A stretch of DNA of 30,299 nt from Chrysochromulina tobinii. Its lineage: Eukaryota > Haptophyta > Prymnesiales > Chrysochromulinaceae. Position 1 is the first letter of the stretch. Each line of letters begins with the position of its first letter. The translations under genes and the position numbers were made by a program. Location of the stretch: NCBI GenBank assembly GCA_001275005.1, contig JWZX01003110.1, positions 1 to 30,299 of the forward strand. Direction: 5' to 3'. Positions 15,128 to 29,651 of the stretch are shown piece after piece. Below the pieces are notes generated by a model. The model was given only the letters and a program-made list of their open reading frames with translations, was not told the origin of the DNA and did not search any database.

Positions 15128-16801
15128 TCACGACGCCGAGTGGATTTCGATCTGTACGTGCCGGGCGGACTTGTCCTTCTCCTTACTTGGCTGCGTCGTG
15201 GGCTCGGGAGATCTCTTGCCCGGGTCTGCAACCCAATCAATCGTCGTGGGCTCGGGAGATCTCTTGCCCGGGTCTGCCACCCAGCTCATGTCGGAGTCGG
15301 CGGAGAAGTTGGTGCCCTGGGAAAAGGAGTTGCCCGGGATTACGGCGCCGGAGAAGTTGTTGCCCAGGTGAAAGAGTTGCCCGGTGTTAGTGCCGGAGAA
15401 GTTGTTACCCTGGTAAAAGGAGTTGCCCGGGGTCACGGTGTAGGCAAGCTCGTTATGGAACGATTTGTCGATGTTAGCCATCTCTTCCTTGGTGGGCTTG
15501 AGCCGCAGGAACAAGCCAATCAGGCGGAGAAGGACGATCGAGACAACGTAGCTGTACAATGCTGCGAGTGACGTTGCGGCAAGCTGTTTGCCGAAGAGCA
15601 GACCACTCCGCGCAGGGCTGCCGCTGATTGTGGAGTCGGCGAATACGCCGGTAAGCACCGAACCCAGCGCGCCGCCCATCCCATGCACACCCCAGACGTC
15701 GAGCGCGTCGTCCCAGCCTGCGTGGTTCTTGAGCATGCAACAGCCGTAACAGAAGACGGAGGCAAGGATGCCGATGACAAAGGCTGCCCACGGGCGCACA
15801 AAGCCCGCACACGGCGTGATCGTGGCGAGGCCGGCGACCGCGCCAATGCACAGGCCGACGAGCGAGGGCTTGCCGTTACGCAGCCACTCGATCGCGACCC
15901 AAACGGTGAGAGCAGTCGAGGCGGTGATCTCCGAGTTGACCGCGGCAATGGCGGCGCTGCCTGTCGACGCGAGGGCCGAGCCGCCGTTGAAGCCGAACCA
16001 GCCGAACCAAAGGAGCGCCGTGCCGAGCGCGACGAAGGGGATATTGTGCGGCTGCGAGTCGACTTTGGCGCCTTCGATCTTTTCGCGCGAGCCCAGCACG
16101 TGGACCGCCGCAAGGGCGGAGAAGCCGGCGGTGGTGTGCACCACAATGCCACCGGCAAAGTCCCGGACGCCCCAAGCGGCCATCCAACCGCCGCCCCATA
16201 TCCAGTGACAGAACGGCGCGTAGACGAGTATGATCCAGAGGCTGATGAAGATGAGGTATGGGCCAAAGCGGAGACGATCCGCGAAGGCGCCGGTCATGAG
16301 CGCTGGCGTGATGCAGGCGAACATGCCCTGGTAGCCCGCGAAGACGAGGCCCGGAATATCGGAGACGACAGTGCCCGCGACGCGCGAGGGGTCGACGTAG
16401 TTGCGATAGAGCGGGCTGTCGTCCACGTTGTTGAAGGCGCCGAAAGTGGTGATCGAGCCCCAGATAAAGTAGGTGTGGCCAAAGCAGAGGGAGAAGACGA
16501 AGAGGAACCAGAGGACGAAGATCAGGCCCATCGCAACAAAGTTTTGCATCAGGATTGCAATGACCGAGCTGCGGGCACAAAGGACGCGCGAGAAACGATC
16601 CAGCATCAGCAGTATCAGCATCATCAGCAGCATGAGCGTCTCAGGCCGACAGGGCGTCCTTGCAAATATCAGGGTCTCTTACTTGTGTCTGAGGAGTCCA
16701 GCATAGAAAAATGCAAGGCCGGGCAGCATGAGCTGCACCAGTGCCATGCTAATTAGCATCCAGGCCGTGTGGCCAGAGTCTATGGCACCGGCTTGCGTCA
16801 T
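15128..16801 (-). CDS. AMT: Ammonium transporter (Amt/Rh family), two exons
   Basis: Exons are 16801-16683 and 16568-15128, joined across a 114-nt GT-AG intron, giving 519 aa. Exon 1 supplies the family N-terminus: WMLISMALVQLMLPGLAFFY, then GLLRH. The joined product continues NSVIAILMQNF. Eleven membrane segments are expected. Visible hallmarks are TPALMTGAFADR, the FCHWIWGGGWM segment, DFAGGIVVHTTAG with the first pore His, NSEITAST and VWGVHGMGGALGS with the second pore His. The protein moves ammonium across a membrane, presumably the plasma membrane, for nitrogen uptake. The cytosolic tail holds repeated GNSFxQGxNFS units and a duplicated 16-aa block (VADPGKRSPEPTT), coded by a 48-bp tandem repeat. 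It is convergent with the GDAP2-like gene. The family is certain and the exon 1 assignment strong. Confidence 0.95.
15195..15289 (-). repeat. 48-bp tandem duplication in the AMT C-terminal tail
   Basis: Two nearly identical 48-bp units begin at 15195 and 15243 (GTCGTGGGCTCGGGAGATCT on the + strand). They code a 16-aa unit containing VADPGKRSPEPTT. Confidence 0.85.
16569..16682 (-). other. AMT intron, 114 nt
   Basis: Donor GTAAGAG, acceptor CCCGCAG. In transcript sense the middle contains CTGAT three times at short intervals (within about 16600-16635), each a possible branch point. Phase 2; removing it joins LLRH to NSVIAIL, as expected for the family. Confidence 0.85.
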
Positions 16802-23962: not shown

Positions 23963-26492
23963 ATGTCTTCGGCACTCCAGAGCGCGCTTGCGGTGCTGCT
24001 CGCGTGCGCCGTGGTGATGCTGCTACTTAACATGATGCACGTGCTGAGCCACGAGGACGCGGGCGTCGTGCAGGCGGTCTCGGACCAGCGGCTAGAGCGC
24101 AAGCTCAAGTCGCTCTTGAAGCAGTCTGCCAAGATGGACGAGCAGCTCGCGGAGCTGCTCGCAGCGACGGAGGCGTTGCAAGGGCACACGAAGACGGCCG
24201 TGGGTGAGGAGCATTCAGTGGGCCATGCTGCCGATGAGGATCTCGGGCAGGACGAGGCGGACGATGCCGCGCCGCTGGCCAAAAAGCTGCGGAAGAGGAA
24301 GGTGAGGAAGGCGAAGGCGAAGGAGAAGGCGGCGGCGGCGGCGGCGGCCACGCACGCCGAGGAGGAGCCAACGTGCCCGGGCCGGCGACCGTACCACACG
24401 GTGCTGACCGCCACTGGATCCAATTATCAGCAGTGGCAGGCGCGCATCATGTACCATCACTGGAAGAAGCAGGCTGCTGCGGGCGGGCCGTGCACCGATA
24501 TGGCGGCGTTCACTCGGCTGTGTGCGACGAATAACGGGAAGCCGGACGGGCTGCAGGACGAGATCCCGACACTGTTCACCGTTGAGCTCAGCCGGGAGGT
24601 GATCAACGCCCACTTCGGCTTCGGCGTCCTAAATCGACCCAATTCCGTCAAGCAACTGATGGAGAGTGAGTGGCACTTGTTTGTCAATGAGTGCACTTGA
24701 TTGCCTCTCGAGTGCACTTGATTGCCTCTCGAGTGCACTTGATTGCCAATGAGTGCCACTTGATTGCGTTTGAGTGCGAGAGTTGTCCTAGAGTGAGCCG
24801 AGGCACCCTGGCTCCAAAGCGCCATGATGAGCACTTGCATGCACACAGAGTTGTCCAAGAGTGAGCGGAGGTTGGCGGTGGCGCAGATGAGACGCTCAGC
24901 ACGGCGCCCTCACCACCGCTCAGCACGGCGCCCTCACCACCGCTCAGCACGGCGCCTTCCCTCAGGTGAGACGCTCCTCGCCGAGATCCGAAAGACTTCG
25001 GACTACGTGCTCATCCTCGAGACCGACCACGTGATCATGAAGCCCATCCCCAACCTGGCGACCCCGGAGATGCCCGCCGCCTTCGTGTTCGGATACATGT
25101 TTCCGCAGCAGAACCAATTATGGGTCATCAAGAAGTATTGGCCCGAGGGCACGCTCGACAAGGTACAGCTGTCAACCCGAACCCGAACTCGAACCCGAAC
25201 CCGAACCCGAACCCTAACCCTAACCCTAACCCTAACCCTAATTGGCCCGAGGGCACGCTCGACAAGGTACAGCTGATCGTCGGCCCCTCCCCAATCAGCA
25301 TGCAAGTGCTCAGCACGGCGTCCCCCTCCCCACTCCCCACAGGTACAGCTGATCGTCGGCCCCTCACCAATCAGCATGCAAGTGCTCAGCATGGCGCCCC
25401 CCTCCCCACTCCCCACAGGTACAGCCGGTCGGCCCCTCCCCCGTCATCATCCACCTCGACCAGCTCCAGAAGGTGTACCAGAAATGGCTCGATTTCTCAA
25501 TGGACCTTCGCTCCAACGCGGACGCCGAGAAGGACATTCAGGGGTGGGTACAAGAGATGTGGGGCTACTCGATCGCGGCCGCTTCGCTCGGCATCCGGCA
25601 CAAGCTCGTCGAGAACTTCCAGGTCTGATTGCACCTGATTGCATCTGATTGCATCTGATTGCATCTGATTACATCTGATTGCATCTGGCACAAGCTCGTC
25701 GAGAACTTCCAGGTCTGATTGCATCTGATTGCATCTGATGACGTCTGAGTGCATTGCATGCAGGTCGAGCCCGGGGCCCTCTCCGCCGCGGATCAGCTCA
25801 AGTTCTTCCAAAATGGCCATTACTATATCTTCCACTACACGTACCAGTTTGAGTACATGCTGGACGGCAAGCCGTGCCAGCCGTGGACAATCGGCGAATG
25901 GAGCCTCGACAAGCGCCACTTTAATGATTACCACCCCGCCTATCCGCTGCCACAACCGCCCAAGGGCGCCAACGTCGCGGGCGTCTGGCTGCTGAACGCG
26001 TGGAACGAGGCGATGGCGGCCAACCCGAAGTGGCCGAAGAAGCAGCCAGCAGCGGATTCAGACGCGCCGCCCATCCAGACGCTCTATGGCCGCCGACGGC
26101 TCGACTGGTTTTCGCGCCATGCGAATGGCTTCGCGCAGGAGATAAGCAAGAACACGCTGGTGAAGCAGACGGCGGGGAAGCGATACGGGTGCATCAAGGA
26201 GGATGGAGGGCAGGAGGATCCTCTCGAGTTCCTGAGCTCGGGTGACGTGACGATCGGACGGCACGAGAAGCTGACTGGCCGCTGGGGCGCGATGAACGAC
26301 CCAACGATTGGCGAGGAGCGCTGCCCAATAGGACAGTGCCTCTTCGTCGACTTTGCTGGGGGAGGCCAGATGATGAACGCTCACGTCGACGGGCAGTCGC
26401 TGACGATCTACCAGGACCACTACAAGGTTCGGAGTGCCGCCAAGCGCGCGACGCCCACTTGGCGGTGCAAGTTGGACCCTCGTGATGCTTGA
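23963..26492 (+). CDS. Hydroxyproline O-arabinosyltransferase-like (GT95) type II membrane protein, four exons
   Basis: Exons: 23963-24665, 24966-25162, 25419-25622, 25764-26492, giving 610 aa with every join in frame. Residues ~8-28 are a signal anchor (LAVLLACAVVMLLLNMM), followed by a coiled-coil stem and a Lys/Ala-rich stretch. The catalytic region starts near 143 with YHTVLTATGSNYQQWQARIM, a match to plant HPATs. Further family landmarks are GKPDGLQDEIPT, LNRP, the DxD-like ETDH (253-256), PNLATPEMPAAF, GPSPVIIH, WGYSIAAASLGIRH and HYTYQFEY with IGEWSLDKR. HPATs add arabinose to hydroxyproline in the Golgi. The C-terminal ~150 residues, with several Cys, extend beyond the plant enzyme and are unrecognised. 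The introns are repeat-rich and carry exon copies. Confidence 0.9.
24666..24965 (+). other. HPAT-like gene intron 1, 300 nt, two tandem arrays
   Basis: Donor GAGA|GTGAGT, acceptor CCTCAG|GTGAG; GTGAG stands on the 3' side of both boundaries. A 21-nt unit (GAGTGCACTTGATTGCCTCT plus one base) repeats at 24689, 24710 and 24731 with decayed copies after. A 24-nt unit (CGCTCAGCACGGCGCCCTCA and four more) repeats at 24893, 24917 and 24941. TGAGACGCTC from the start of exon 2 also occurs inside, near 24888. Phase 1. Confidence 0.9.
25163..25418 (+). other. HPAT-like gene intron 2, 104 + 76 + 76 nt, stuttered splice sites
   Basis: AG|GTACAGC occurs at 25163, 25267, 25343 and the exon start 25419. 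The last two intron units are exactly 76 nt, each beginning GTACAGCTG and ending CCCCACAG, so each is itself a possible GT-AG intron. Each unit begins with a near copy of exon 3 (GTACAGCTGATCGTCGGCCC versus GTACAGCCGGTCGGCCCC). Phase 0. Confidence 0.92.
25172..25240 (+). repeat. Telomere-like tract, (CCCGAA)n then (CCCTAA)n
   Basis: About 69 nt of CCCGAA-type units pass into roughly five perfect CCCTAA units, the complement of the TTAGGG telomere repeat. It sits in intron 2 of the HPAT-like gene between two 35-bp direct repeats (25137-25171 and 25241-25275). Confidence 0.9.
25623..25763 (+). other. HPAT-like gene intron 3, 141 nt, CTGATTGCAT array with an exon copy
   Basis: Donor CAG|GTCTGA, acceptor GCAG|GTCGAG. 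CTGATTGCAT units repeat with 10-nt period on both sides of a copy of the exon 3 end (25682-25723 repeats 25592-25633, period 90, including the donor site). Phase 0. Confidence 0.9.
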
Positions 26493-28541: not shown

Positions 28542-28690
28542 CTAGAAGCCGAAGCCAGTCTCGAAGGGCTTCGTGTACTCACCACATTAGGCGATCTAGA
28601 AGCCGAAGCCAGTCTCGAAGGGCTTCATGCACTCACCACATTAGGCGAGCTAGAAGCCGAAGCCAGTCTCGAAGGGCTTCATGTACTCAC
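28542..28690 (-). repeat. 54-bp tandem repeat spanning the 3' end of the FCP gene
   Basis: Units start at 28542, 28596 and 28650. The third is the real gene end (KPFETGFGF plus stop). The two downstream copies repeat that coding end and stop, then GTGGTGAGT-type sequence. Copies differ by a few substitutions. Confidence 0.9.
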
Positions 28691-29651
28691 CCGCGTACGG
28701 AGCGATCGGCAGCGTGTCGAGACCCGGCACGATGCAGCCCTTCGAGACGGAGAGGCAGCCGAGGAGGCCGAGCATCGCCGCACGCCCGTTGTTGAGCTCG
28801 ACGAGCAGCCCTCGCGCCTTTTGCTCGGGCGTCTTGTTCTTGGAGAAGCCGAGGGGGTCGAAATAGTCCAAGGGCACCGGGTGCGGAACCGCCTTCTTGA
28901 GCGACGGGAAGTAACCCGGCTTGCCTCCTGCGCGGGGGTGGTGGAGGTCGCAGGGTCAGAGCCTAGAGCCGAACGGGCGTCGTAACGGGCGCCGCCTCTG
29001 CATGGGCGCTGCGTGCTCGGGTGGAGCACGGCGCACCGCGCATGTAGTGCGGCGTTCCGTCAATCCTCGGAGCCGCCTCGCCGAAGATCTCCATCAGGCC
29101 AGCGAAGAGGATGATCTGCCACTTCGCGTTCGCTGGGAGTGCATCCCACTGGTCACCAGGGCCGCCCGCCGCGCTGATCTCGGCAAAGGGGTGGCCGGGT
29201 GTGATGTCCCAGGGCCAGTGTACGCCGGCCGACTGCACCAGATAGCCCACGAAGCCGAACATCGCCACGCGCCCATGCTTGATCTCCGCTTGGCGGAACC
29301 AGCCGATGGTCTCTGCCTGATCCTTTTCCCACAGGTTGCCCTGGAAGCCGAGGCCCATGTGGTTGTCGTCGGCGAGACCGAGCGGGTTCCAATCTGGACA
29401 GCAGATGGGTGGCGTACGGGCAAGCGTTAGAGAGCGGTTCGGGACGAGTGGCCACGCCGCTGCCGCCGCCTCCGCCGTGGGGTGCGAGAAAGGACGGCGT
29501 GCTCACAGCCAAGAATGGGGTTCAGCTCATTCGCCAGCTTCTTAAGGTCCGCGACCGTCTCCATCTTGATGGAGGAGGAGAACACCACGCGCGGTGCAAC
29601 CGCCGTGGCCATTGGCGCGAAGCCCGCAGTAAAGGACGTGAGGGCGAGCAT
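28650..29651 (-). CDS. Fucoxanthin-chlorophyll a/c binding protein (LHC family), three exons
   Basis: Exons: 29651-29507, 29393-29037, 28927-28650, with introns of 113 and 109 nt (GT-AG, phase 1 each), giving 259 aa. The N-terminus (MLALTSFTAGFAPMATAVAP) looks like the start of a plastid-targeting presequence. Helix 1 contains EIKHGRVAMFGFVGYLV and helix 3 contains LVELNNGRAAMLGLLG, the paired E-x-x-H/N-x-R chlorophyll-binding helices. Helix 2 is WQIILFAGLMEIF. GYWNPLGLAD near the mature N-terminus is typical of FCPs. It collects light for photosystems in thylakoids. The introns look ordinary (CTAAC and CTGAC branch-like words, no arrays), unlike those of the genes at 20-26 kb. The 3' end is tandemly triplicated. 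Confidence 0.95.

Follow-up and report, generated by a model that had tools for sequence, protein, structure and literature searches.

A probable introner-type intron with long target duplications and a telomere-repeat unit in an arabinosyltransferase-like gene of Chrysochromulina tobinii

Where new introns come from is a long-standing question, and in most cases the traces have aged too much to be read. An intron of the haptophyte Chrysochromulina tobinii that holds copies of its own exon borders brings this question to a single locus: by what events did it arise, and in what order? It lies in a window of 30,299 nt (contig JWZX01003110.1, positions 1 to 30,299), the whole stretch of DNA that was analysed, in a plus-strand gene whose hand-spliced protein matches the Pfam family HPAT (PF23452, E=2.1e-107) and which, by this homology, is a predicted hydroxyproline O-arabinosyltransferase (HPAT) homologue. 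Among named homologues the best are from two haptophytes, Prymnesium parvum (48%) and Diacronema lutheri (57%), and green algae rank lower. The gene model comprises the coding part of exon 1 from its first ATG (23963-24665; Pfam PF23452 and homology), intron 1 (24666-24965), exon 2 (24966-25162), intron 2 (25163-25418, 256 nt), exon 3 (25419-25622) and intron 3 (25623-25763), all on the plus strand. The border between exons 1 and 2 was placed by homology (LMES|ETLLAEIRK), and protein homology likewise backs exon 2, which ends in ACGCTCGACAAG, and exon 3, which begins with GTACAGCCGGTCGGCCCC (VQPVGPSP). The splicing of intron 2 is also read from protein homology: removal of 25163-25418 gives LDK|VQPVGPSPVII, in agreement with the homologues. 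Most likely the cell excises this segment from the first donor to the last acceptor, either at once or one unit after another; by inspection, all paths between these two points via the flush AG|GT sites would give an identical mRNA.

Intron 2 is composed of one 104-nt telomeric unit followed by two 76-nt units, with flush AG|GT joins from unit to unit. As the initial annotation had reported, AG|GTACAGC recurs at 25163, 25267, 25343 and 25419, and exon 3 itself (GTACAGCCGGTC) starts at 25419 with the same word as the units. Its measurements of the last two units also hold: each is exactly 76 nt long (25267-25342 and 25343-25418) and runs from GT to CCCCACAG, the second being a tandem copy 96% identical to the first (Tandem Repeats Finder score of the array, 301). 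Each joins an exon-3-like start, GTACAGCTGATCGTCGGCCCCTCCCC (exon 3 itself reads GTACAGCCGGTCGGCCCCTCCCCC), to a cassette; in unit 1 the exon-3-start copy spans 25267-25297 and the cassette 25298-25342, and in unit 2 the cassette spans 25374-25418. The copy of the exon-2 end inside the intron is real and exact, with ATTGGCCCGAGGGCACGCTCGACAAGGTACAGCTG standing at 25137-25171 (the end of exon 2 plus the first 9 nt of the intron) and again at 25241-25275 with 35/35 identity. The description of three like tandem units, however, fits the two 76-nt units and fails for the first, in which a telomere-type array (AACCCG/AACCCT)n, C-rich strand in sense, occupies 25172-25240 between the two copies of this 35-nt duplication.

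In its second half, the 76-nt unit consists of a repeat dispersed through the genome. Comparison of the intron region with its own genome (53,154,812 bases in 2,253 contigs) returned at least 43 matches, with 40 of 79 candidates scored, and many of them start at the cassette. The latter, of about 42 nt, consists of a 23-nt core, GCATGCAAGTGCTCAsCACGGCG, a pyrimidine tract and CCCCACAG; within the core, CTCAC is a putative branch point. With up to 3 mismatches the 23-nt core has 2,360 matches in the genome (1,136 forward and 1,224 reverse), as against 0 in a reversed control of the same genome. An exact 15-nt core occurs 971 times, and the core followed after 3-30 nt by CCCACAGGT has 449 matches beside these 971. 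More than half of each 76-nt unit is dispersed repeat, and because its core recurs across the genome the unit is a member of this family. The status of the family as introns is backed by protein homology for two copies, in HPAT and in an RNase Z-like gene, the genes at the other copies being unannotated; in both genes relatives lack the intron at the same position. We propose, with a probability of roughly 0.7, that HPAT intron 2 is an introner-type intron whose donor came from a long target duplication. That the whole intron is duplicated exon sequence can be ruled out, as the cassette at 25298-25342 is dispersed repeat and not exon.

Several other repeats lie in the same window. Intron 1 contains a reversed, imperfect copy of the family core (24819-24842), a truncated core recurring every 24 nt (24893-24956) and, at 24884, a 14-nt near-copy of the exon-2 border. 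In intron 3 the end of exon 3 is exactly duplicated over 37 nt (25597 and 25687) around a TGATTGCATC minisatellite. A reading frame of ammonium-transporter type holds a 36-nt exact duplication with a 12-nt insert (15194-15277, period 48), and a 54-nt repeat of 2.8 copies (28542-28691) lies near a chlorophyll-binding-protein-like reading frame.

Long target duplications are widespread at copies of the cassette. A first pass over loci L001-L038 and L069-L108, which include loci found with the intron itself, covered 107 core instances, 84 of them with the CACAG end; the upstream and downstream flanks matched without gaps in 50/84, a score found in 0.49% of shuffled pairs, and 38 copies scoring at least 12 had duplications of 25-45 nt. 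A gapped null used at first (39/84 at its 99th percentile) was contaminated by pieces of the same contig under different ids, and was replaced by 911 mismatched pairs. For a cleaner set we took L009-L038 and L069-L108, 89 instances in contig order rather than at random, from 100 exact places listed (30 as loci and 54 of the other 70); an instance needed at least 80 nt of upstream and 150 nt of downstream sequence to be retained, and other core matches within the pieces were kept. Here, a flank duplication above the 99.9th percentile of the mismatched pairs is present at 66/89 copies (53/68 with CACAG and 13/21 without), and 23/89 have none that is significant. The aligned duplications measure 15-55 nt with a median of 30, and 40/66 fall within 25-45 nt; the 3-9 bp target-site duplication of short-duplication DNA-transposon introners is not what this family displays. 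The downstream repeat starts 0-3 nt before the CACAG end in 38/53 copies and elsewhere in 15/53, the span from repeat start to core has a median of 38, and 37 of those 38 copies have a GT donor. L016 is a clear case, with 33/34 exon letters on both sides of the cassette.

Copies of other make-up also occur. Among the 13 duplicated copies without CACAG, six (at L022, L095, L103 and L104) have a second repeat within 6 nt of the core and periods of 48, 48, 60, 48, 45 and 51, all multiples of three, two of these copies being adjacent within one array; the 45-60 nt that these acceptor-less copies add look as if they were translated. The other seven have periods of 84, 92, 83, 111, 167, 115 and 79. 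A second core lies on the same strand within about 115 nt in 25/89 copies, indicating tandem involvement; the repeats flanking a cassette should ease its doubling, which would explain the two 76-nt units of HPAT. The openness of the reading frame proved uninformative as a test of splicing in this GC-rich genome: 28/38 frames were open when spliced, 28 when unspliced and 26 in antisense.

Enzyme-driven non-autonomous DNA transposons have been proposed for many introners, and one making an unusually long stagger would account for the fixed 23-nt core, its thousands of matches and the duplications at most sampled copies. We nevertheless regard it as unlikely here, since the aligned duplication length is spread over 15-55 nt, no terminal inverted repeats were noticed by eye in the copies inspected (a visual rather than a systematic scan), and telomere and minisatellite inserts come with duplications of similar size.

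The relatives of the gene bear on the order of events. From 120 listed homologues, 16 were aligned at the junction between exons 2 and 3, and in 15 of them it is uninterrupted and reads VQPVGPSP or similar, although transcripts or spliced gene models may be among them, P0006 being a transcript and P0027 and P0033 named gene models. A genomic origin is most likely for P0013, because at another place its sequence passes into a non-homologous tail, and the sixteenth, P0019, stops earlier, apparently in intron 1. A second protein search yielded 20 matches, nine of which (P0121-P0129) were read, the alleles of these relatives being known here as proteins only. Seven extend beyond the exon-2 border, and their reading frames show the intron; P0121 stops at this border and P0126 before it. 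By eye, at the protein level, the telomere array is missing from P0125, P0127 and P0128, which have one unit, and from P0124 and P0129, which have two; it is present in P0122 (a short array and one unit) and in P0123 (the array, a duplicated YWPEGTL, a partial unit and a full unit).

Scores of whole proteins against models of the alleles tracked the reading frame and missed these structures, giving the best score for P0122 and P0123 to an array-free model of two units and that for P0125 to a model of the array plus one unit. For this reason, the assignment of alleles rests on reading the sequences and on stretch placement, in which 24-34 letters were set against degenerate back-translations, with shuffles, P0128 being left out. 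By this placement the first 24 letters of exon 3 fit P0124 both inside the intron and at exon 3 (24/24, shuffled maximum 21), and the letters of unit 1 come ahead of those of exon 3 in P0122, P0123, P0125, P0127 and P0129.

The likely order, from these comparisons, is an uninterrupted gene, then one unit, then two units and then the telomere insert. A late telomere insertion fits the 35-nt duplication, which holds GTACAGCTG, the spelling of the unit and not that of exon 3. Individual alleles that lack the telomere array could also be later losses between the 35-nt repeats. The search among relatives for intronless and one-copy alleles, which had been suggested at the outset, has thus yielded, at the protein level, uninterrupted forms in more distant relatives and one-unit, two-unit and telomere-bearing forms in close ones. 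It also overturns the claim that 25241-25300 preserves the ancestral uninterrupted coding sequence: telomere-less relatives join exon 2 to the introner unit at this place (TL[DN]K|V[QP]LIVGPSP), which makes the read-through there an exon 2/introner junction predating the telomere insertion.

This weighs on the account of the locus proposed at first, in which the intron came from plain tandem duplication of an exon segment with AGGT and 25241-25300 is old coding sequence. The four flush AG|GTACAGC sites and the exact exon copies agree with it, but more than half of each 76-nt unit is dispersed repeat, and the read-through is, in relatives without the array, the introner junction just described. 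Plain tandem duplication is not supported, because the acceptor and the pyrimidine tract come from the dispersed cassette, and we hold it to be very improbable. What stands of the initial proposal is that the intron grew recently through events that duplicated AGGT-bearing exon ends and left their steps readable. Many introns here carry a copy of the exon that they entered, which allows their source and order to be followed; intermediate alleles seem to survive in close relatives, and the growth of an intron becomes readable step by step.

As for the array itself, (CCCTAA)n was found, among the first listed of 147 matches, at or close to the beginning of contigs C103, C992, C1485, C1490, C1678 and C1970, and it also ends C855. 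Such positions at contig ends mark it as the telomere repeat of the organism, and the array in intron 2 is built of this same unit and an AACCCG variant. The first unit, of 104 nt, is a separate event, in which telomere repeats would have come in together with a 35-nt duplication. We examined 16 internal telomere arrays; L047/L111 and L063/L117 among them are copies of one repeat each. Four have exact flank duplications: of 35 nt in HPAT intron 2, 47 nt in L060, 30 nt in L049 and 18 nt in L116, the last extending by eye to about 25 nt with one mismatch. Shorter flank repeats were seen by eye in L109 (10 nt) and L110 (12 nt), and no flank repeat of 10 nt or more, array sequence excluded, was found in 10/16. 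The 47-nt duplicated piece of L060 (C881) contains GCAACGCAG|GTGCGC; as it holds CAG|GT, insertion alone would supply both donor and acceptor, and L060 looks like a newborn intron. L113 (C1556) is a possible intron made wholly of telomere-type repeats, G|GTAACCC...CCCTAG|G.

A further route of spread is suggested by the 5' part of the HPAT unit, GTACMGCTGATCGTCGGCCCCTC, which occurs three times in the genome: in the two HPAT units and on contig C1182, where an 80-nt intron is about 90% identical to the HPAT unit. We take the C1182 gene to be RNase Z-like from its motifs and one source name (P0149); scanning its downstream frame (L002:1482-2039) against Pfam turned up no family. Its relatives P0142, P0143 and P0144 match Pfam PF12706 and are uninterrupted at the intron position, and P0140 (98%) has the intron. 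P0141 seems to have two units, the second matching the first 24 letters of HPAT exon 3 at 23/24 (shuffled maximum 22) and its first 30 letters at 26 (shuffled maximum 27); with its unrelated N-terminus, it may be chimeric. No flank duplication was found at C1182 by either ungapped or gapped comparison of the flanks. The start of HPAT exon 3 occurs once in the genome and VGPSP is conserved among HPAT homologues, which makes HPAT the likelier source of the shared intron. One intron appears to have been copied whole between HPAT and the RNase Z-like gene, more probably from the former. The 5' tags of three other copies led to no other source gene, those of L011 and L069 being unique and that of L014 recurring only on C977, so that whole-intron sharing stands at one case in four tags tried.

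The shared intron could also speak for reverse splicing, in which the 3' end of an excised intron RNA attacks AG|GT and reverse transcription follows. This would account for the two genes sharing an intron with about 90% identity over its GT-to-AG length, for the lack of a detected duplication at the RNase Z-like copy, and for a site that P0142-P0144 read through and at which P0141 apparently has two units. As the means of spread it is nonetheless quite unlikely, given that the other three tags pointed to no other gene, most sampled copies have long duplications of their own flanks, and duplications also accompany copies without CACAG (13/21).

The recurrence of the L014 tag touches on the assembly. 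L122 and L123, on C29 (the contig of L014 itself) and C977, are 99.96% identical over 2.3 kb, and by this identity the pair is an uncollapsed haplotype or an assembly duplicate. Such a duplicated contig pair, and the presence of tandem copies in a draft assembly, might suggest that the HPAT pattern is an assembly artefact of tandem repeats; however, proteins from other contigs share its architecture with differing copy numbers, and we consider an artefact extremely improbable.

We return to the introner-type reading. Drawing on the anatomy of the intron, the genome-wide family, the duplications and the read-through proteins of relatives with simpler forms, all of which are directly observed, we advance the following plausible mechanism. 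A cassette of about 42 nt would have inserted into an uninterrupted exon beside AG|GT, duplicating about 30 nt of the exon. The cassette would supply the 3' splice site and the branch-point-like CTCAC; the upstream exon copy would become the 5' part of the intron and give the donor, with the downstream copy remaining exon. The resulting introner unit would then have doubled, and a later break at the exon-2 border would have been patched with telomere repeats, duplicating 35 nt and adding a GT...AG unit. We infer that one kind of staggered break with filling-in makes both the cassette and the telomere insertions, just as the order of events and splicing in the cell are inferred.

More tentatively, and with less confidence than we place in the account of HPAT intron 2, this may be extended to a single break-and-fill process with 20-50 nt staggers that makes introns from any fill, the finished introns being sometimes copied whole into other genes. 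The fills would be the introner cassette, telomere repeats and the TGATTGC-type minisatellite; each would duplicate the exon end, and the AG|GT of the target would yield the donor and, if needed, the acceptor. The exon-derived 5' part would then label the origin of introns copied whole, as from HPAT to the RNase Z-like gene. A scan for exact duplications of at least 18 nt around an insert, in the window and the fetched loci, gave 157 pairs: 40 around the core, 14 around or with a partial core, 21 around the TGATTGC-type minisatellite, 3 telomere-like, 31 around other simple repeats and 48 others. The scan leans towards cassette loci, counts ordinary tandem repeats as well and is without L060, most likely removed by the complexity filter; its pairs suggest one common break process.

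These features can be set against known systems, as described in the portions of the literature drawn on here. Gozashti et al. 2022 (PMC9860276) describe introners whose target-site duplications supply one splice site, citing 3-9 bp for earlier families and showing cases of 4 and 8 bp; the one from Chrysochromulina, with duplications of 4 bp, carries the 5' splice site. Dispersed similar introns are found here too, but with duplications of 15-55 nt (median 30) in place of 3-9 bp. The introner elements of Amoebophrya (PMC7789003), mostly non-canonical introns with direct repeats of 3-5 nt and inverted repeats of 8-20 nt, share with this family the placement of repeated introns between direct repeats. 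In Daphnia pulex, intron gain at staggered double-strand breaks leaves exon-end repeats of 4-12 bp (PMC4202315); exon-end direct repeats and serial insertions within new introns are common to both, whereas the Daphnia account features no dispersed cassette and the string 'telomer' is absent from its main text. Mammalian interstitial telomeric sequences at breaks have duplicated flanks at 6/130 rodent and 4/25 primate loci (PMC2246262): there, as is proposed here, telomere repeats were put into a break, sometimes with flank duplication, but the present array lies in the intron of a coding gene and adds a possible donor and acceptor. A limited open-literature search of titles and abstract openings returned no match for telomere repeats as the raw material of an intron unit. 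In the potato case (PMC4974935), where an intron was gained through a tandemly duplicated AGGT segment, the donor comes, as in HPAT, from a duplicated exon piece, whereas the acceptor here comes from a dispersed cassette. Rogers and Bendich 2025 (PMC11782384) report repeats of 4-30 bp, with a mean of 11.4, for 213 introns of several types. Judged against these published values for introners and break-made introns, the present duplications exceed them several-fold in length, and this suggests that another kind of break or enzyme is at work. The architecture, by comparison with these accounts, is that of an introner; its distinguishing features are the long duplication and the telomere unit.
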